Shown piece by piece: positions 11,977 through 40,541 of a stretch of DNA of 54,218 bases. This stretch comes from Phycisphaera sp. Lineage in GTDB: Bacteria; Planctomycetota; Phycisphaerae; Phycisphaerales; SM1A02. Location: assembly GCA_016124975.1 (NCBI GenBank), contig WGMP01000027.1, positions 1 to 54,218 of the forward strand, given 5' to 3'. The notes beneath the pieces were generated by a model. The model made no database searches. It had not been told where the DNA came from and worked only from the letters and a program-made list of their open reading frames with translations. Both the position numbers and the translations under genes were made by a program. The first letter of the stretch is position 1. Each line of letters starts with the position of its first letter.

Positions 11977-14568
11977 ATGACATTCGTCCCGAAGTCCACG
12001 GCCTGCGCGCGTCGAACCTTCGGTGTGCGCGGAACCGCCGCGTTCTGCGCGGTTTTCGCGTCGCTCGCGCCCTCGATCGCGCTCGCGCAGCAAGGCGACC
12101 GCGCGGGCGAGACGCAGGGCGAACTGCCTGCCGAGTGGCGCGTCGACTCGTCGCCCGTGCGCACGGCGGACGAGCAGCTCGCGACCTTCGCGCTTCCCGA
12201 TGGATATCGGATCGAGCTCGTCGCCGCCGAGCCGCTCGTCGAGGCGCCTGTCGTCTTCGAGTTCGGGCCCGACGGGCGGCTCTGGGTCGTCGAGATGCGC
12301 GGCTACATGCGCGACGCCGACGGCGCGGGCGAGCGCGATCCGATCGGCCGCATCAAGGTCCTCACGGACGACGACGGCGACGGCCGCATGGACCGCGCGG
12401 AGATCTTCCTGGATGGGCTCGTGATGCCGCGCGGCATCGCGCTCTGGCGCGACGGACTGCTCGTGATCGAGCCGCCGCACCTCTTCTTCGCACGCGACAC
12501 CGACGGCGATGGCCGCGCGGACCGCTCCGAGCTCGTCGCGAGCGGCTTTGCGGGCGAAGACAACCCCGAGCACGCGGGCAACGGGCTTCTCTTCGCGCTC
12601 GACAACACCTTCGTGTGCTCGCAGCACCCGTTCCGTTTCGTCGTCGACGGCGCGTCGCTGCGCGCCGAGCCCGTGTCGCCGCACGGGCAGTGGGGGCTCT
12701 CCGAGGACGCTCTTGGAAGGCTCTACTACTCGCCGAACTCCGATCCGCTTCTCGTCGACCTGCTGCCCAAGCAGCACGCGGCGCGCAACCCGTCGCAGCG
12801 GAACTTCGAGGGCGTGCCCGCGCGCGCCGCGCGCGACGCGCGCGTCCACCCCTCGCACCTCACGCCCGGCGTGAACCGCGGCTACCAGCGCGGCGTGCTG
12901 CGCGATGGACGCCTCGCCGAGTTCACGGGCGCGTGCAGCCCGCATGTCCACGAGGGCCGCGCGATGGGCGCCGACATGGAGGGCTGCGCCCTCGTGTGCG
13001 AGGTCGCGGGAAACCTCGTCCATCGCTATCGCCTCACGGAGGAGGACGGAAGGATCGTCGCGACGCCAGCAGACGACGGGCGCTCGTTCCTCACCTCGAC
13101 CGACGAACGCTTCCGCCCCGTCCACTGCGAGGCGGGCCCCGACGGGTTCATCTATCTCGCCGACATGTACAGGGGCGTGATCCAGCATCGGCGCTTCATG
13201 ACGACCTTCCTGCGCACGCAGGTCGAGGCACGCGGGCTCGAGGAGCCGCTCGACGCGGGCCGTATCTGGCGGATCGTTCCCGACGGCGCGGCCCAGCGCC
13301 GTGCGCCGAACCTCGCGACGGCCGATGCGGCCGCGCTCGTCGGCTTCCTGTCGCACGACGAGAAGCCCGTGCGAACGATGGCGCGGCGACTTCTCGTCGA
13401 GCGCCGCGAACCCGCCGCGATCGCGCTCCTGCGCGAGCAGCTGCGCGGAACGGCGCTTTCGCGCGTGGCGGCCATCGAGTCGCTGTGGGCGCTCGCGGGG
13501 ATGGGTGGCGCGGACGATGCGCTCCTCGCGGAGACCCTGCGCCGCGACGACCCCGTGCTCCGCGTCCACGCGCTGCGCGTCGCCGAGCGCTCGAGCGACA
13601 CCGTGACGCTCGCGTCGTTCCTCACGCGCGCGATCGAAGACCCGGCCCACGCGCCGCGCGTGCAGGCGGCGCTCTCGGCGTGGCGGCTCGACGCGCCGCT
13701 GCGCGCCGCGTTCCTCGAGACGGCGATCAGGCGCGACATCGGCTCGCGCGAGATGCGCAGCGCCGTGCTCGCCTCCGCGCGCGGCGTCGAGCGCGACATC
13801 CTCGACGCGGTCGTCGCGGGCAGACTTCTCGCCGAAGAGGGCGTCGCCTCGCGCGCCTTTGCGGTGGAGCTCGCCGATGTCCTTCTCGACGACGGCGACG
13901 GACTTCCGAGCCCCGCGACGCTCGCGGAGACCGTGTCCGCGGCGGCGCGCATCGCACGCGAGCGCCCGTGGCTTGCGAAGGCGATCCTCGAGCGCGTCGC
14001 CGCGAAGCAGAACCTGAACGCGAAGGAGCCGCGCCAGCTCGTCGCCGCAGCCGAGCCCGCTGGCTGGGGCGCGCTCCTCGACGCGCTTCCTGCCGACCTC
14101 GCGCTCGCAAGCTCGGTCGACCGGCAGCTCTTCTGGCCAGGGCGCGAGGATGTCTCCTTTATCGCGCCGCGCATCGCGCGCGGGAAGGAGCTGAGCCTCG
14201 AGGAGTTCGGCAAGCGGCTCTACTCGAACTGCATGAGCTGTCATCAGGCGAACGGCCGCGGGCTTCCGCCCGTCTATCCGCCGCTTCGTGGCAGCGAGAT
14301 CGTGCACGGCGACGCGACCACGCTCGTCAAGATCGTGATGCACGGGCTCGAGGGACCGATCATGGTCGACGGCCAGCGCTACAACCAGGTCATGCCCGCA
14401 GCGCCACTGCGCACCGACGAGGAGATCGCCGCGGTGCTCACCTATGTGCGCGGCGCGTGGGGGAACGCGGGCGCGCCGATCGACACGGCGCTCGTCTCCG
14501 AGGTGCGCGAGGCGACCAAGGGCCGCAACAAGCCGTTCACCTCGAAGGAGCTCGGGCTGCATCCTTGA
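11977..14568 (+). CDS. Propeller, HEAT and cytochrome c protein of the PVC dehydrogenase type
   Basis: An 863-residue exported protein of a family common in planctomycetes and verrucomicrobia. A signal peptide (ending near SIALAQQ, about residue 38) precedes a glucose/sorbosone-dehydrogenase-like beta-propeller (about 60-440; PDGYRIELVAAEPLVEAPV, RGIALW, HPSHLTPGVNRGY). HEAT-like helical repeats follow (about 445-690). The C-terminal class I cytochrome c domain has CMSCH at 752-756 and a probable distal methionine at about 806 in VMPAAP. It probably oxidises a carbohydrate-type substrate in the periplasm and passes electrons to the heme, but the substrate is unknown. The start is set by the TACACT box. 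Its stop codon begins a palindromic repeat. Confidence 0.9.
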   Translation: MTFVPKSTACARRTFGVRGTAAFCAVFASLAPSIALAQQGDRAGETQGELPAEWRVDSSPVRTADEQLATFALPDGYRIELVAAEPLVEAPVVFEFGPDGRLWVVEMRGYMRDADGAGERDPIGRIKVLTDDDGDGRMDRAEIFLDGLVMPRGIALWRDGLLVIEPPHLFFARDTDGDGRADRSELVASGFAGEDNPEHAGNGLLFALDNTFVCSQHPFRFVVDGASLRAEPVSPHGQWGLSEDALGRLYYSPNSDPLLVDLLPKQHAARNPSQRNFEGVPARAARDARVHPSHLTPGVNRGYQRGVLRDGRLAEFTGACSPHVHEGRAMGADMEGCALVCEVAGNLVHRYRLTEEDGRIVATPADDGRSFLTSTDERFRPVHCEAGPDGFIYLADMYRGVIQHRRFMTTFLRTQVEARGLEEPLDAGRIWRIVPDGAAQRRAPNLATADAAALVGFLSHDEKPVRTMARRLLVERREPAAIALLREQLRGTALSRVAAIESLWALAGMGGADDALLAETLRRDDPVLRVHALRVAERSSDTVTLASFLTRAIEDPAHAPRVQAALSAWRLDAPLRAAFLETAIRRDIGSREMRSAVLASARGVERDILDAVVAGRLLAEEGVASRAFAVELADVLLDDGDGLPSPATLAETVSAAARIARERPWLAKAILERVAAKQNLNAKEPRQLVAAAEPAGWGALLDALPADLALASSVDRQLFWPGREDVSFIAPRIARGKELSLEEFGKRLYSNCMSCHQANGRGLPPVYPPLRGSEIVHGDATTLVKIVMHGLEGPIMVDGQRYNQVMPAAPLRTDEEIAAVLTYVRGAWGNAGAPIDTALVSEVREATKGRNKPFTSKELGLHP

Positions 14569-14600
14569 GCGCTCGCCGCTGCGGCGGCTCGCTCTGGCGT
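14566..14600 (+). repeat. Stop-codon-overlapping palindrome
   Basis: TGAGCGCTCGCCGCTGCGGC followed by GGCTCGCTCTGGCG. The TGA is the stop codon of the preceding gene. It aligns with the elements at 168 (minus), 38185 (minus), 46984 (minus) and 53788 (plus). The arms can form an imperfect stem around TGC. A transcription-terminating or REP-like role is inferred. Confidence 0.7.
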
Positions 14601-14643
14601 GAAGGAAGCACATGGCGTGCGCCGCGCCGCCGACGCTCCGCGT

Positions 14644-34564: not shown

Positions 34565-37195
34565 ATGCCCTCCGTCTCGTACGACTCCAAGAGCTTCTTT
34601 CTCGACGGCGCCAAGTCGGGCATCCGACGCCTCGCGCTGGTGGGCGCCTCGCTCGAACCCGCCGTTCTCCCTCCCTCGGGATGGACGGCGACCTTGCGCG
34701 CGATCCGGCGCGCGGGCTGCAACACCGTCGCCGTGCGCGTGCCGTGGTCGATGCACGAACCGACGCCCGGGCGCTTTGACTTCGAGGGTGCCAGGGACCT
34801 CAGGCGATTCATCGTCGAGGCGGGCGCCGCGGATCTCAAGGTCGTCGTGCGCGTCGGCCCGTGCGTCGGTGGCACCTTCGCGCGCGCTGGCCTCCCCGCG
34901 TGGCTGCCCGAACTCGCGGGCGACAGCATCCGCGACGCAGCGCCCGCCTTCATGCAGCGCGTGACGAGCTGGTGGCGCAGGCTCGCGCGCGAGTGGGTCG
35001 ACCTGCAGGCCACCCGCAACGGAAGCAGCGCGGAGCGCCCCGTCATCGCCGTCGGCATCGAGAACGACTGGCACTCGCTCGACGAGGAGGTCGGCGCGCG
35101 CTACTTCGGCGACCTCGTCCGCTATGCGCGCGAGTGTGGCATCGAGGTCCCGCTCGTCAGCGTCAACAACTGCTGGTCCATGCACGAGGGCGTCGTCGAC
35201 GCGTGGCGCATGGGTTCGGGTGGCGGCGGCGCGCGCACGGCGCTCGAGCTTCGCGAGGTGCAGCCCGACGCGCCTCCCGTCCTCATGGGGCTCGCGCGCT
35301 CGGTGCAGGAGGTCGCCGGTGCGCTCGCCTCGCGCGCGGACTTCTTCCTCGAGTTCCTCGGCGGAACGCACGCGACGGCCACGGCCGCGCTCGGCGCTGC
35401 GCAGGTGCCCACGCAAGGCATCGATTCGCTGCGACGGCTCCTCGTCTTCGCGAGCACGTTCGGGCCGCTCCTCGCAGGGCTCGTGCCCGAGCCGACGCCT
35501 GACGACGAAGGCCGCAGCGTCCTGAGGGGCCCGGGGGCCGAACGCGTGTTCGTGACGCCGTCGAAGACCGCGTCTGGCATCGCATTCCATGCAAGCGACA
35601 TCTCGATCAACGGATCGAGGCTCGAGCGCTGCACCGCATCCCTCGTGGCGCTCTCGGGCGATCTCCTCGTGGTCGCGGGCCGCGCGCGCACGAAGATCCG
35701 CGTGCGCGTGAATGGAAGCGAGAGCGCGCTGACGGTGCCTGCCGATGGCGCTGTGCCGAAGGTGACGCGCGTGCGAAGCCTGCGGATTGCCGTGGTGCCC
35801 CTTTCGCTCGCGGACGGAATCGCCATCGCGGCCGACGGCTTCGAGTTCATCGACGACGCGGGCAAGCTCGTCGCGTCGATCTCGACCGATGGCCGCGTCG
35901 TGCGTCACAAGCCAGCGTCGCGCGCCGCATCGGCGCAGCGGGGCAAGGCCATCAGGCTTGGCGCGCTCGAGATGCTCGAGGAACGAGATCTCCTTGACGG
36001 CTCGCATCCGCGCTTTGCATCGACCGCGGCGCCGCGCGCGCTCGGCGCATACGGCGTCGACTCGCTGCACGGCTACTACCGCGCGCGGCTCAAGTCCCGC
36101 GCAGGATCGAAGAGGATGCTCGCGCTTCCGTTCGCCCGGCTTGGCTCTGGCCGCGTGGCCATCGACGGCACCGCGGAGTCGCGCGGAACCGCTCCCGTGT
36201 TCGAGCTCGCGCCCGCGAAGGGCGCGCGGTGCATCGTCGCCGAGGTGCGTGCGCCTGGCTTCGTGACCGACGCGGCGCCCGCGGGTTCGTTCGGTGAACT
36301 GCGCACGGGTGTCTTCGGACCACTCGTCGACCTTGCGCCGCTCAAGGGCGTGCGCAGCGAGTTCATCCCCATGCCTGCGTTAGATGCCACGCGGATGGGG
36401 CGTTTCGTGCTTGGATACGACATGCGCGACCCCGCGCGCGCGGCGCCGCGCACGCTGCGCTGGACCTTCCCGCCCCGCACGACGGCTGTCGTCATGCGTC
36501 TGCCCCGATGGTGGGTGGCCGGGTCGTGCGCCGCAGGTGGCGCCGCATCGCGCGACGCGCTGCGCCTCAACGGCGAGCTCGTCGTCGCAGGGCAATCGGC
36601 GTTCTCGGCGGAACTGGTCTGGCTCGACGGCTCGCGGCTCTCGCCCATGCGGCCGAAGGCGCTCGCAAAGGGCGAGAAGCCACCCAAGGCGAAGGCCGTC
36701 CGACTCGAGCCAGGTGCGAACGAGGTGGTGCTCGACCTCGATCACCGCGCAGACCATGGCTCGGGCCCCGATCTCGAGCGTCTGCGCAGCGAGGTGGCGT
36801 TCCTCGAGGTGCGCCACGAGGTCGCGGCGGAGTGGGCCTTCGCGCGAATTGCGCCGCCTGCGAGCTGGGCGCGCGCCGTGCCGCTTCCGCGCAGCGGCGG
36901 CGCGAAGGCATCGGGCATCCCCACATGGTTCCGCGCGTCGTTCGTGGTCGCCGCGGGAGGTGCCTGCACGCTCGAGGCGGCGTTCGAGCGCGAAGCCTGT
37001 GCGACGGTGTTCGTGAACGGCGCGTGCGTTCTCGCGCAGGACGGAGTGAGCGGAGAACCCCGCGGCAAGGGCGCGCGCGCCAAGCTCGTTCGCCGAGCGA
37101 CGCTCGCGCCGACCGCGCTCGAGGGCGGCCGCAACGAGATCGCCGTCTTCTCACCCGATGGCCGCGCGCCCGACCTGTCCCTGCACGAGTGCTGA
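34565..37195 (+). CDS. GH35 beta-galactosidase-like protein with deleted nucleophile segment
   Basis: An 876-residue cytoplasmic protein. The N-terminal TIM barrel follows GH35 beta-galactosidases: the start VSYDSKSFFLDG, TLRAIRRAGCNTVAVRVPWS then MHEPTPGRFDFEG, RVGPCVGGTFARAGLPAWLP and RPVIAVGIENDW, whose glutamate (about 164) matches the acid/base. The expected MxEFWxGWFDxWG block with the nucleophile is missing: QPDAPPVLMG runs straight into LARSVQEVAGAL. The HGGTNFG position reads LGGTHAT. C-terminal beta domains follow, ending with a jelly-roll-like segment (ASFVVAAGGACTLEAAFERE). It is probably a pseudoenzyme or has a changed mechanism. No signal peptide is seen. It overlaps the convergent membrane gene by 45 bp at the end. 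Confidence 0.72.
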   Translation: MPSVSYDSKSFFLDGAKSGIRRLALVGASLEPAVLPPSGWTATLRAIRRAGCNTVAVRVPWSMHEPTPGRFDFEGARDLRRFIVEAGAADLKVVVRVGPCVGGTFARAGLPAWLPELAGDSIRDAAPAFMQRVTSWWRRLAREWVDLQATRNGSSAERPVIAVGIENDWHSLDEEVGARYFGDLVRYARECGIEVPLVSVNNCWSMHEGVVDAWRMGSGGGGARTALELREVQPDAPPVLMGLARSVQEVAGALASRADFFLEFLGGTHATATAALGAAQVPTQGIDSLRRLLVFASTFGPLLAGLVPEPTPDDEGRSVLRGPGAERVFVTPSKTASGIAFHASDISINGSRLERCTASLVALSGDLLVVAGRARTKIRVRVNGSESALTVPADGAVPKVTRVRSLRIAVVPLSLADGIAIAADGFEFIDDAGKLVASISTDGRVVRHKPASRAASAQRGKAIRLGALEMLEERDLLDGSHPRFASTAAPRALGAYGVDSLHGYYRARLKSRAGSKRMLALPFARLGSGRVAIDGTAESRGTAPVFELAPAKGARCIVAEVRAPGFVTDAAPAGSFGELRTGVFGPLVDLAPLKGVRSEFIPMPALDATRMGRFVLGYDMRDPARAAPRTLRWTFPPRTTAVVMRLPRWWVAGSCAAGGAASRDALRLNGELVVAGQSAFSAELVWLDGSRLSPMRPKALAKGEKPPKAKAVRLEPGANEVVLDLDHRADHGSGPDLERLRSEVAFLEVRHEVAAEWAFARIAPPASWARAVPLPRSGGAKASGIPTWFRASFVVAAGGACTLEAAFEREACATVFVNGACVLAQDGVSGEPRGKGARAKLVRRATLAPTALEGGRNEIAVFSPDGRAPDLSLHEC

Positions 37196-37624
37196 CGCGA
37201 ACTTCCCCGCGCCGATCGCCGCTACGGGCGGCAGTATGACGCCCGCGGCAATCATCCAGAGGGGATGCGGCATCAGCACGAAGTTCATCGCCACAAACAC
37301 GACGGCGATCACGGCGATCGCGATCGAGAGCGGCATGCAGTTCGCGCCGCCCACGCGGCACGCCGCGAACGCGCCGAGCGCAGCGCCGAGCGTCCACGCG
37401 ATCACCACGACCGCGAGCGCGCCGAAGGGCATGCCGCCCATCGCGGTCGCCAGCGCGTCGCGTGCGCCTTCCTCACCGCGCTGTAGGAGGGCGATCGCAT
37501 CGAGCATCTCCTGCGAGGGCGGGTAGATCTGCTTGCCGAGGCCTTCGAAGAAGCCCGTGAACGCGACCAATACGAGCACCCCTGCGGGCAACGCGAGCGC
37601 GAATCGAATCCGCTGCAGGTTCAT
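37151..37624 (-). CDS. Four-helix membrane protein, unknown function
   Basis: A 157-residue integral membrane protein without a recognised family. Hydrophobic helices are at about 8-26 (ALALPAGVLVLVAFTGFF), 66-90 (FGALAVVVIAWTLGAALGAF), 97-115 (SIAIAVIAVVFVAMNFVL) and 117-140 (WMIAAGVILPPVAAIGAG). The loop after helix 1 contains YPPSQEMLDA. This layout resembles small uncharacterised proteins of many gram-negative and planctomycete genomes. TACTCT (minus strand 37631-37636) ends six bases before the ATG at 37624, which decides against an upstream ATG at 37720. Its tail overlaps the GH35-like gene. Confidence 0.75.
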   Translation of the reverse strand: MNLQRIRFALALPAGVLVLVAFTGFFEGLGKQIYPPSQEMLDAIALLQRGEEGARDALATAMGGMPFGALAVVVIAWTLGAALGAFAACRVGGANCMPLSIAIAVIAVVFVAMNFVLMPHPLWMIAAGVILPPVAAIGAGKFASALVQGQVGRAAIG

Positions 37625-37662
37625 GTGGGAAGAGTACCGCGCCCGTCGACTCCGATGGTTTG

Positions 37663-37690
37663 CGTTCCGCATGCTGAAGCATGCGGGCAC
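37663..37690 (-). repeat. Hairpin element, GCATGC stem variant
   Basis: Read on the plus strand: GTTCCGCATGCTGAAGCATG then CGGGCACC. The stem is CCGCATGC/GCATGCGG with loop TGAA. The flanks GTTCCG and CGGGCACCC match the elements in the 37765-38100 array, but the stem sequence differs. Confidence 0.85.
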
Positions 37691-37723
37691 CCCCGGCTTT
37701 GGGACTCCGACGCGTGTCATCCA

Positions 37724-37757
37724 CGCCAGAGGAAGCCGCCGCAGCGGCGACCGCTCA
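37724..37757 (-). repeat. Palindromic element, copy without adjoining gene end
   Basis: On the minus strand: TGAGCGGTCGCCGCTGCGGC then GGCTTCCTCTGGCG, the same family as the stop-codon elements at 168, 14566, 38185, 46984 and 53788. Here it lies inside the intergenic region, next to no supported stop codon. Confidence 0.75.
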
Positions 37758-37764
37758 AACCACG

Positions 37765-38100
37765 GGGTGCCCGTGGACTTCAGTCCGCGGAACGGATGAT
37801 GTCAGCCGTCGACTCCGACGGTTGTCGTTTCGGGGACTTCGTCCCCGGGCACCCATGGTTGATGACTCCGACGATCTGAATCATCCGACACGACAATCAT
37901 GGGTGCCCGTGGACTTCAGTCCGCGGAACGGATGATGTCAGCCTTCGACTCCGACGGTTGTCGTTCCGGGGACTTCGTCCCCGGGCACCCATGGTTGATG
38001 ACTCCGACGATCTGAACCGTGCGACACGAAAATCAGGGGTGCCCGCAGACTTCAGTCTGCGGAACGGGTGACGTCAGCCGTCGACTGCGACGCGCACCGT
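37765..38100 (+). repeat. 136-bp tandem repeat, each unit with two hairpins
   Basis: Units begin at 37765, 37901 and 38037 (last partial). Each opens GGGTGCCCG, carries a GTGGACTTCAGTCCGC hairpin and, about 70 bp on, GGGGACTTCGTCCCC followed by CGGGCACCC, so the unit is itself bounded by an inverted repeat. In the third unit the first hairpin reads GCAGACTTCAGTCTGC: both arms changed together. No reading frame is conserved across the units. CCGACGGTTGTCG, between the two hairpins, is a third conserved block. Confidence 0.92.
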
Positions 38101-38152
38101 CCACGCCAGAGGAAACCGCCGCCGCGGCGTGGACAACGCCGAGCGTCACTCA

Positions 38153-38187
38153 CGCCAGAGGGAGCGGCCGCAGCCGCGACCGCTCTA
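38153..38187 (-). repeat. Palindromic element directly after the ALDH stop
   Basis: On the minus strand the stop codon TAG is followed at once by AGCGGTCGCGGCTGCGGCCG and CTCCCTCTGGCG. A degenerate half copy (CGCCAGAGGAAACCGCCGCC) lies at 38104-38128. Here the element's first triplet has become TAG in place of TGA. Confidence 0.8.
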
Positions 38188-39087
38188 TTGAAGCGCACTC
38201 GGATGCCACACCGTCTTCAGATCGACGAACGGCTGGATCGCGAACGGCGAGTGCCAGAACGCGTCGTCGTCGAACGGCGGCGCATCGTGGAAGAGGTGCA
38301 CGCGCTTCAGGTTCTCAGCGGCGCCGAGCTCGAGCGCCTTCGCATCGGCTGCGGGAAGCCGCGCGCCTGCGACGCCTGCGAGGTCGCGGTGCGACGCGAT
38401 CCACGGCGCGAGCTCCGCGCGTGCGCCCGTGAGGATGTTGATGATTCCCGCAGGCACATCGCTGGTGGCGACCGCCTCCGCGAACGCGATCGCAAGCGGC
38501 GCGTTCGCAGCTGGCTTGCCCGCGACGGGCGCGACCACGATCGCGCTGTTCCCTGCGGCGATCACGGGAAGCAGCAGCGAAACGGTCGCAAGCAGCGGCC
38601 GCTCGTCGGGCACCATCACAGCGACCGTGCCCATCGGTTCGGGCATCGTGAACACGAAGTACGGCCCCGCGACGGGCTGCTTGCCGCCGAGCACCGCGGC
38701 GATCTTGTCGGTCCAGCCCGCGAAGCACACGCAGCGGTCGATCGCGCGGTCGACTTCCTTCGCGGCCTCGCCCTTCGTGCGGCCCTCGATCGACACGATG
38801 AGCGACGCGAACTCCGCGCGGCGCGCCTCGAGCATCTCGGCGAGGCGATAGAGCACCTGCCCGCGGTTGTACGCGGTCGCCGCGGCCCACTTCGGCTGCG
38901 CGGCGTTCGCGGCCTCGACCGCGTCGCGCAGGTCCTTGCGGCTGGCGTGCGACGCGTGCGCCACGAGACGCTTCTTCGCGTCGAGCACAGGCACGGTGCG
39001 CCCGCTCTCGCTGCGCGGGAACGCGCCGTTCACATAGAGCTTCAGCGTCTTCGCGACCTCGACGCGGGTGGCGTTCGCAGGACTCAT
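38185..39087 (-). CDS. Truncated aldehyde dehydrogenase paralogue without catalytic domain
   Basis: A 300-residue protein related to the N-terminal (NAD-binding) half of aldehyde dehydrogenases: LYVNGAFPRSESGRTVPV, KDLRDAVEAANAAQPKWA, NRGQVLYRLAEMLEARR and the Rossmann stretch PEPMGTVAVMVPDERPLL. The conserved ELGGKS glutamate, the catalytic cysteine segment and the whole C-terminal half are absent; it ends in a short FHDAPPFDDD tail. The ATG at 39087 overlaps the stop of the full-length ALDH upstream (ATGA) and has GGAGGTG before it. The pair looks like a split form of the ALDH16 class, in which an active ALDH carries a second inactive ALDH unit. It probably assembles with the upstream enzyme. 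Confidence 0.85.
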   Translation of the reverse strand: MSPANATRVEVAKTLKLYVNGAFPRSESGRTVPVLDAKKRLVAHASHASRKDLRDAVEAANAAQPKWAAATAYNRGQVLYRLAEMLEARRAEFASLIVSIEGRTKGEAAKEVDRAIDRCVCFAGWTDKIAAVLGGKQPVAGPYFVFTMPEPMGTVAVMVPDERPLLATVSLLLPVIAAGNSAIVVAPVAGKPAANAPLAIAFAEAVATSDVPAGIINILTGARAELAPWIASHRDLAGVAGARLPAADAKALELGAAENLKRVHLFHDAPPFDDDAFWHSPFAIQPFVDLKTVWHPSALQ

Positions 39088-40541
39088 CGCGCACCTCCAA
39101 GCTTCACATACGCCGAAAGCCCCTGGCGCCCGCCCTCGCGGCCGAAGCCCGACTCCTTGTATCCGCCGAACGGCGCGCTCGCGTCGAAGCGGTTGAAGGT
39201 GTTGAGCCACACCACGCCCGCGTTCAGGCGGTTCGCCATCTCGAGCGCGCGCGCGGCCTTCTCGGTCCACACGCCCGCGCTGAGGCCGTAGGTCGTGTTG
39301 TTCGCGCGCTGCACGGCTTCTTCAGGCGTGCGGAAGGTCATCACGCTGAGGACGGGCCCGAAGATCTCCTCGCGCGCGATCGTGTGCGACGGCTGCACGC
39401 CCGTGAAGATGCACGGCCTGCACCAGAAGCCCTTCTTCGGCAGGTCGCACGCGGCCTCGAACCTCTCCGCGCCTTCGTCGGAGCCGGCCTTGAGATAGCG
39501 TTGAATCGTCGCGAGCTGCGCCTTCGAGTTGATGGCGCCGACATCGGTGTTCTTGTCGAGCGGGTCGCCGACGCGCAGCGAGCGCATGCGGTTCCGCAGG
39601 CGGTCGATGAAGTCCTCGTGGATCGATTCCTCGACGAAGAGCCGCGAGCCCGCGCAGCAGACATGGCCCTGGTTGAACCAGATCCCGCTCACGACGCCCT
39701 CGACCGCCTGGTCGAGCGCTGCGTCTGCGAACACGATGTTCGGGCTCTTGCCGCCGAGTTCGAGCGTGAGCTTCGCGCCCGAACCCGCGAGCGCCTTCGC
39801 GATCGCTTTGCCGACCTCGGTCGAGCCCGTGAAGGCGACCTTGTCGACCTTGCCCTTCGCGGCGAGCGCGGTGATCGCGCGGCCGGCGTCGGGGCCGCCC
39901 GTCACGATGTTGACGACGCCTTCGGGAAGGCCGCACTCCGCGAGGATCTCGCCGAGGACCAGCGCCGTGAGCGGCGTCGTCTCGGCGGGCTTCAGGACGC
40001 AGGTGTTGCCGCACGCAAGCGCGGGCGCCAGCTTCCACGCCGCCATCAAGAGCGGGAAGTTCCACGGAATGATCTGCCCGCATACGCCGACGGGCTTCGG
40101 CTTCGCGCCCGCGAACGCATAGTCGAGCTTGTCGCACCATCCCGCGTGGTGGAAGAAGTGCTGGGCGACGAGCGGAAGGTCCTCGTCGCGCGACTCCTTG
40201 ATCGGCTTGCCGCCGTTCATCGACTCGAGCACCGCGAGCTCGCGCGAGCGCTCCTGGATGCGCCGCGCGATGCGGAAGAGGATCTTGGCGCGCTCTGCGG
40301 GCTTCGTCTTCGCCCACTTCGGCTGCGCCTTGCGCGCGGCGTCGACCGCGCGCGCGACATCGGCCTCGCCCGCGTCAGCGACCGTGGCGATCGCCTCCTC
40401 GGTGGCGGGATTGATGGTCCTGAAGCCCTTGCCGGACTTCGGCTCGACGAAGCGGCCGCCGATGAAGAGCCCGTATTCGGACCTGAGCGTGGGTCGGACG
40501 CTCTCGGGCGCGGGCGCGTAGGGAATTGGCGCGATTGTCAC
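39084..40541 (-). CDS. NAD(P)-dependent aldehyde dehydrogenase
   Basis: A full-length 485-residue ALDH that oxidises an aldehyde to its acid. LFIGGRFVEPKSGKGF opens the fold, IIPWNFPLLMAAWKLAPALA and FTGSTEVGKAI make the cofactor site, ELGGKSPNIV contains the general-base glutamate (about 261), and GHVCCAGSR holds the catalytic cysteine (about 295). EEIFGPVLSVMTF and PFGGYKESGFGREGG close it. The GTG at 40541 is used because TACACT ends seven bases before it; no ATG lies nearby in frame. It is the first gene of the pair with the truncated paralogue and is divergent from the SOUL lipoprotein. Substrate cannot be told from sequence. Confidence 0.93.
   Translation of the reverse strand: MTIAPIPYAPAPESVRPTLRSEYGLFIGGRFVEPKSGKGFRTINPATEEAIATVADAGEADVARAVDAARKAQPKWAKTKPAERAKILFRIARRIQERSRELAVLESMNGGKPIKESRDEDLPLVAQHFFHHAGWCDKLDYAFAGAKPKPVGVCGQIIPWNFPLLMAAWKLAPALACGNTCVLKPAETTPLTALVLGEILAECGLPEGVVNIVTGGPDAGRAITALAAKGKVDKVAFTGSTEVGKAIAKALAGSGAKLTLELGGKSPNIVFADAALDQAVEGVVSGIWFNQGHVCCAGSRLFVEESIHEDFIDRLRNRMRSLRVGDPLDKNTDVGAINSKAQLATIQRYLKAGSDEGAERFEAACDLPKKGFWCRPCIFTGVQPSHTIAREEIFGPVLSVMTFRTPEEAVQRANNTTYGLSAGVWTEKAARALEMANRLNAGVVWLNTFNRFDASAPFGGYKESGFGREGGRQGLSAYVKLGGAR

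Follow-up and report, generated by a model that had tools for sequence, protein, structure and literature searches.

What maintains a hairpin whose ends hardly vary while its stem differs from copy to copy? The question is raised by a 54,218-nucleotide stretch of Phycisphaera sp. DNA (hereafter the window, meaning the whole stretch that was analysed), which carries six such hairpins side by side. A preliminary description had noted that both arms change together while the flanks stay, and had proposed that the folded form is preserved or copied, either as an RNA structure under selection or as hairpin DNA handled as a single strand. We consider it probable, at roughly four chances in five, that the array is a BIME of REP-like palindromes in inverted doublets (REPINs) that carries an atypical tag and is spread by a RAYT encoded on contig C15 of the same genome.

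A hairpin array with fixed ends and variable stems

The features of the array and its linkers are as follows; positions are those of the window.

37664 to 38065, no strand assigned: six hairpins forming a REP/BIME-like array; order A+ B- C+ B- C+ J-, successive gaps 72, 33, 46, 33 and 46 nt
37664 to 37692, plus strand: class A hairpin, stem CCGCATGC, loop TGAA, GTTCCG-CATGC-TGAA-GCATG-CGGGCACCC
37693 to 37764, no strand assigned: 72-nt linker variant that contains another short repeat module (37722-37756)
37765 to 37793, minus strand: class B hairpin, stem CCGCGGAC/GTCCACGG with C.A at pair 4, loop TGAA, GTTCCG-CGGAC-TGAA-GTCCA-CGGGCACCC
37794 to 37826, no strand assigned: 33-nt linker between the GTTC ends of a facing pair; an identical linker joins other stem classes elsewhere
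37827 to 37854, plus strand: class C variant hairpin of the GGGAC type, starting with GTTTCG, loop TTC
37855 to 37900, no strand assigned: 46-nt linker between GGGCACCC ends
37901 to 37929, minus strand: class B hairpin, GTTCCG-CGGAC-TGAA-GTCCA-CGGGCACCC
37930 to 37962, no strand assigned: second 33-nt linker
37963 to 37990, plus strand: class C hairpin, stem CCGGGGAC, loop TTC, GTTCCG-GGGAC-TTC-GTCCC-CGGGCACCC
37991 to 38036, no strand assigned: second 46-nt linker
38037 to 38065, minus strand: class J hairpin, stem CCGCAGAC, loop TGAA, GTTCCG-CAGAC-TGAA-GTCTG-CGGGCACCC

The ends are nearly fixed (GTTC..GGGCACCC), while four stem versions occur among the six copies. Each stem comprises 8 base pairs, CCG/CGG included, and is closed by TGAA in four cases and TTC in two. 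Five hairpins start with GTTCCG and the sixth, at 37827, with GTTTCG. The sequence CGGGCACCC is found eight times in the window, six of them in the array, whereas 100 shuffles averaged 0.82 occurrences and never exceeded 3. The outline, ends and four stems given in the preliminary description stand, as do its coordinates apart from shifts of one or two bases. Its constant loop and invariant start do not, given the two loops and the GTTTCG copy, and the arms that it read as GGAC/GTCC are actually CGGAC/GTCCA with a C.A mismatch at pair 4. The mismatch concerns the strand as written; the complementary strand, which reads GGGTGCC, has a T.G wobble there.

The array sits between open reading frames 37151-37624 and 38185-39270, provided that the first starts at 37624; its frame stays open to 37720, inside the array. 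No match to this first frame was found in the 15 loci searched. The other short repeat module, CACGCCAGAGGAAGCCGCCGCAGCGGCGACCGCTC, has a small palindrome of its own and occurs at 37722-37756, 38151-38185 and, on the minus strand, 14567-14601; 36 copies are present in 29 of 74 other loci scanned, often within linkers of 70-72 nt. Integron attC sites also combine fixed ends with variable stems. They follow the rule GTTRRRY, which GTTCCGC breaks, and this identity was rejected.

A repeat family spread through the genome

The genome surveyed comprises 3.61 Mb in 59 contigs and is 97.6% complete. The pattern GTTCCGN8-30CGGGCACCC occurs in it 190 times (91 forward, 99 reverse), and the same pattern read backwards does not occur at all. 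We collected 279 hairpins in 75 clusters (73 fetched loci, the window and the locus of the C15 RAYT), which is a lower bound because only clusters matching the search patterns were taken in. A looser hairpin scan gave 363 candidates, many of them chance palindromes, and was kept out of all counts. Ten classes can be told apart by stem and loop together and eight by stem alone, each label allowing up to two mismatches to its reference.

Class A: CATGC, 84 hairpins
Class B: CGGAC/GTCCA, 62 hairpins
Class C: GGGAC, 27 hairpins
Class S: GTTCAGCAGAC..GTCTGCTGGCACAC, 22 hairpins
Class G: CAGGT, 20 hairpins
Class E: TGGAC, 19 hairpins
Class D: TTGGAC, 18 hairpins
Class F: class D stem with another loop, 17 hairpins
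Classes J and K: CAGAC with two loops, 2 hairpins each
Unclassified: 6 hairpins

With lengths of 28-29 nt and this copy number, the hairpins agree with the REP format of high-copy palindromes of ~20-40 nt. They lie on the minus strand in 144 cases and on the plus strand in 135, alternating inside arrays. Opposite-oriented neighbours face each other across 32-34 nt between GTTC ends (103 gaps) or 45-47 nt between GGGCACCC ends (70 gaps), which is the alternating orientation and regular, conserved spacing of BIMEs. Same-orientation gaps of 108 and 151-152 nt contain a class S hairpin, one of them in decayed form. Linkers are alike across arrays with different stems, and one exact 33-nt linker joins class A to H, E and G variants, indicating that the linker persisted while stems were altered or swapped. 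From their coordinates, 45 of the 75 clusters in this genome (G000) lie within ~200 nt of a contig end, and the repeat therefore probably causes much of the assembly fragmentation.

The flanks that stay fixed read GTTC and GGGCACCC, the latter being GGGTGCCC on the complementary strand. A strict definition of REPs (PMC3686654) calls for a GT[AG]G tag at the foot of the hairpin followed by a palindrome, and the absence of this tag weakens the REP/BIME assignment. On the REP/BIME reading, the family is an atypically tagged variant of the known REP/BIME kind, with GGGTGCC in place of GT[AG]G.

Both arms change together

Among 278 hairpins (one of odd length, at locus L068, was left out of the pair counts), 2131 of 2224 stem cells are Watson-Crick pairs and 196 hairpins are fully so. 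Reduced to 37 distinct cores, 262 of 296 cells are Watson-Crick, whereas 1000 shuffles averaged 192.8 and peaked at 210; these shuffles ignore relatedness among classes that are few and heavily copied. Adding 22 hairpins from relatives (19 new cores) gives 398 of 448 cells against a shuffle mean of 291 and maximum of 315, with a bias toward pairing since these 22 were picked by eye as hairpin-like. Seven of the eight stem pairs, pairs 2-8, vary on both sides. The foot covaries as well: its second pair changes from C-G to A-T in class S, and the third from G-C to T-A in classes D and F. The central claim of the preliminary description, that the arms change together and the fold is kept, is supported. 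Pairing is kept, yet independent compensatory events are few: about ten classes have been copied many times, and the 279 hairpins do not represent 279 events.

At least one non-Watson-Crick pair is present in 82 of the 278 hairpins, 55 of which have the commonest class B core. Of the deviating cells, 69 are wobbles on the GGGTGCC strand, 6 are wobbles on its complement and 18 are true mismatches whichever strand is read. Arm changes that disrupt pairing, named earlier as evidence that would count against a preserved fold, therefore do occur, as a minority of 18 in 2224 cells. The 69-to-6 imbalance hints that the GGGTGCC strand is the one that folds; most of these wobbles belong to class B and so have few origins.

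Rare intermediates with one arm changed exist (TGGAC/GTCCC in 2 copies, GGGGAC/GTCCA in 1 and CGGAC-TTC-GTCCA in 2), as does one chimera in which a CAGAC arm is joined to a GCATG arm. These forms, and the identical linkers that join different stems, could also come from a process that never selects shape, in which template switching (quasipalindrome correction) or recombination of whole hairpin cassettes produces matched arms in repeats that may be passive. We think this unlikely as a full account, because it leaves the high copy number, the tag, the alternating arrays and the RAYT beside copies unexplained. Template switching or cassette recombination could nevertheless act together with REP/BIME spread.

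It is very improbable that the hairpins instead act in transcripts (in mRNA stability, termination or as small RNA), with compensatory changes preserving an RNA fold. The kept pairing and the excess of wobbles on one strand would suit such a role, and a 226-nt part of the array, treated as RNA, folds far better than shuffled sequences (z = -7.36), though inverted repeats alone give that result. The wobbles, however, stem mostly from one class and thus few origins, and the nearly equal, alternating orientations argue against a strand-specific RNA. No Rfam family scored above its gathering threshold in 37000-39000 of the window. Two terminator-like hits in 37500-38300 (37643-37658 and 38117-38138) do not coincide with these hairpins, which led us to reject terminators, and no promoter-like site was found. 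Of the two origins envisaged in the preliminary description, selected RNA structure is consequently disfavoured, and single-strand handling of hairpin DNA fits a genome in which a RAYT gene has three copies adjoining it.

A RAYT gene adjoins copies of the repeat

Three RAYT-type genes are present in the genome, on contigs C15, C14 and C30; a PF01797 search missed the C14 gene, which was recovered by protein search and NF047646. The C15 protein scores 89.5 bits against NF047646 (REP-associated tyrosine transposase; cut-off 80) and 30.9 bits against PF01797 (cut-off 23), and matches the solved TnpA_REP structure 4er8 at E = 0.0042. Its translation contains NHVH and YIHLNP, corresponding to the HUH motif and the catalytic tyrosine in the RAYT motif table of PMC6006769, and also WQ. 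Three hairpin copies lie upstream of the gene and none of the pattern lies downstream (locus L078), an arrangement of the REPtron kind. A scan with the C15 protein gave one hit, a distant protein with 26% identity. DUF1501 adjoins the RAYT and suggests a host within the Planctomycetota.

The 190 exact copies, alternating arrays, shared linkers, kept pairing and adjoining RAYT together argue for the REP/BIME interpretation, as do the GGTGCC-tagged hairpins at RAYT loci of the genus and the variation of the site among relatives, both described below. Under it, each palindrome would form an 8-bp hairpin as single-stranded DNA, and the folding strand would most probably be 5'-GGGTGC-CCG..loop..CGG-AAC. 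The prime candidate for the agent would be the C15 RAYT, a TnpA_REP-like single-strand transposase of the HUH/Y1 type. If it behaves like the TnpA_REP enzymes studied so far, it may recognise the 5' tag together with the shape of the hairpin and accept varied stem letters. Stems would drift or be swapped as matched cassettes while the tag and linkers stay, and different stem classes on the two strands would weaken the long palindrome that two identical facing hairpins make.

Several observations weaken the link to C15. The repeats lie on one side of the gene only, and adjacency to one given gene would arise by chance with a probability of the order of a few percent (a rough figure from ~75 clusters and ~3000 genes). 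This repeat adjoins none of the RAYTs found in relatives with the C15 protein (25 other loci), and the relative G008 has 21 exact copies with no NF047646 match at 1e-5, in an assembly that is 82% complete. The REP/BIME assignment itself is weakened by the standing C.A mismatch of class B, since mismatches lowered cleavage by two studied enzymes according to PMC8266576.

The other two proteins score 84 bits (C14, with no Pfam match) and 60.8 bits (C30, below the cut-off of 80, with 39 bits for PF01797) against NF047646. The C14 RAYT (locus L094, 1147-2037) is flanked by a low-copy palindrome family of its own, GGGTGCCACCACTT, with six members in the genome and four at the locus. The C30 RAYT (locus L004) has GGTGCC..GGCACC palindromes with inner GCACGTGCC on both sides (1437-1497 and 2267-2322), and similar palindromes flank RAYTs in relatives G004, G010 and G012.

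Across the genus there are 23 RAYT matches. Leaving out two partial ones (L115 and L127), GGTGCC-tagged hairpins occur at 10 of 21 RAYT loci, with 21 hairpins in total compared with a mean of 4.0 in five base shuffles. This recurrence suggests that in this group the role of GT[AG]G may fall to GGTGCC.

No stem class is seen on both strands of an array

Hairpins that lie in opposite orientation within 200 nt of each other always differ in class (260 of 260), compared with same-oriented neighbours, 76 of 130 of which share one; no class occurs on both strands of an array in any of 68 arrays. The rule is unaltered when D is merged with F and J with K. Six unclassified hairpins are excluded from the 200-nt neighbour counts, included in the facing-gap counts, and included in the label-free counts where they have standard length.

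Facing pairs 32-34 nt apart share a class in 0 of 103 cases, against 9.3 expected when sides are kept and 17.1 when they are pooled, and none of 5000 shuffles reached 0. Taking one facing pair per locus leaves 0 of 61 against 7.0 expected. For the 46-nt set the count is 0 of 70 (shuffle mean 4.3, P = 0.005), or 0 of 42 with one pair per locus (P = 0.013). Without labels, fewer than 2 of 16 arm bases differ in 0 of 266 opposite-oriented pairs versus 79 of 135 same-oriented pairs; 50 of the 266 differ by just 2 of 16, or about one base pair.

The left classes (mainly A, B, D and F) and right classes (mainly A, C, E, G and S) are largely separate, so that the shuffle test of the rule rests mainly on class A, which is found on both sides and never faces itself. 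This separation makes an origin free of functional constraint a serious candidate for the class rule alone, at somewhat below even odds: a small number of founder pairs, whose left and right members gave rise to distinct lineages, may have been copied, or same-class inverted pairs may have been lost in sequencing or assembly. The position of 45 of 75 loci within ~200 nt of a contig end and the 50 opposite pairs that differ by 2 of 16 arm bases point the same way. Against it stand the absence of same-class facing pairs despite class A being on both sides (0 of 103 versus 9.3; per locus, 0 of 61 versus 7.0) and the label-free contrast of 0 of 266 with 79 of 135. Visual comparison of five closely spaced, oppositely oriented pairs in relatives shows that they differ too (G003 C32, G004 C44, G004 C67, G006 C460 and G008 C23).

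Local folding as the reason for the rule was half upheld. With DNA energies, the mean predicted minimum is -29.2 kcal/mol for native facing pairs compared with -46.5 kcal/mol for same-class constructs, and self-pairing is predicted to outweigh cross-pairing in 31 of 103 native pairs versus 0 of 206 constructs. The long palindrome is thus weakened, yet cross-pairing is still the predicted outcome for the majority of native pairs. The latter counts against a further proposal, in which stem classes would serve as orthogonal barcodes: the RAYT would need self-folding single-stranded hairpins, and selection would keep mutually non-pairing classes on each strand of every array without SbcCD. We hold this to be quite unlikely. 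SbcD as the cause was also rejected, since no match was detected at E = 0.001 in the 97.6% complete genome, compared with matches in 13 of 14 control genomes.

Relation to known REP systems

Among the closest parallels are the GTAG- and CGTC-tagged REPs of PMC3733652, which likewise are short palindromes, present in many copies and tagged at one end, have alternative complementary stem residues within families, and form inverted dimers with conserved spacers, some families as heterodimers only. The present family differs in its GGGTGCC tag, in having about eight stems in one genome and in a class exclusion that spans whole arrays, beyond dimers. Stem variation of this sort is usual for REPs and its extent here is rich; the class rule is the part worth following. 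In that study no obvious explanation was seen for the heterodimer preference, and SbcCD was suggested; the absence of same-class pairs among 260 opposite neighbours quantifies this preference in a genome where SbcD was not detected.

PMC8266576 describes E. coli BIMEs that similarly place different REP types (y and z) in inverse orientation, form tandem mosaics and are accompanied by a TnpA_REP gene. Those REPs carry GTAG, and also a conserved bulge that activity requires; here GTAG is lacking and stems are mostly full. According to the same paper, the E. coli element loses all activity once its bulge is removed, and two other enzymes cleave less when the stem is mismatched, so stem letters are not free everywhere. 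Pseudomonas fluorescens REPINs, as presented in PMC3116915, also are inverted doublets separated by a spacer and can fold into a single long hairpin, and compensatory changes were noted in them. Their doublet ends are highly conserved, whereas the paired ends here differ in stem class.

By the motifs NHVH, WQ and YIHLNP, and by these only, the C15 protein would be placed nearest to TnpA_Y1 subclass 2.1 of PMC6006769, where that subclass has no REPs found adjoining it and carries a C-terminal domain, unlike the C15 case. TnpA_Y1 class 3, from the same paper, resembles our case in occurring in Planctomycetes among others and in being flanked by multi-copy atypical hairpins, and differs in its CnGA tag and tyrosine motif. 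Among the matches listed, no title or abstract describes a GGGTGCC-tagged family; GGGTGCC does occur inside published Stenotrophomonas REPs written GGTGGGTGCC. With tag and linkers nearly fixed and about eight stems, this one genome offers a natural series in which the enzyme's cue, shape or letters, is directly testable.

Relatives and the insertion site

Exact matches to the pattern occur in 8 of 15 other genomes of the genus, with 1 to 21 each; the backward control occurs once in each of three. The neighbouring aldehyde dehydrogenase gene has counterparts at 13 loci in relatives (78-91% identity). Twelve of these hold no such hairpin within the stretch fetched, and at the thirteenth (G004, L136) an inverted pair is present whose two stems are of other types. 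From the end of the glycosyl hydrolase gene to that of the dehydrogenase gene the distance is 990 nt in the window, compared with ~100 nt or less in L131, L132, L135 and L138 and ~450 nt in L130, the figures for relatives being our own arithmetic from extrapolated ends. Such comparisons indicate that the site of the array varies among relatives.

Other arrangements are seen in this group. Contigs C221 and C242 of G006 carry CAGAC hairpins of the same class as direct repeats, several of them 64 nt apart, in a single orientation per contig, unlike the alternating arrays of the window genome. In G014 a longer hairpin, GTTCCGCAGTCTCCGCTNCGCGGCGACTGACGGGCACCC, shares the ends of the family and occurs in more than 10 copies on many contigs.
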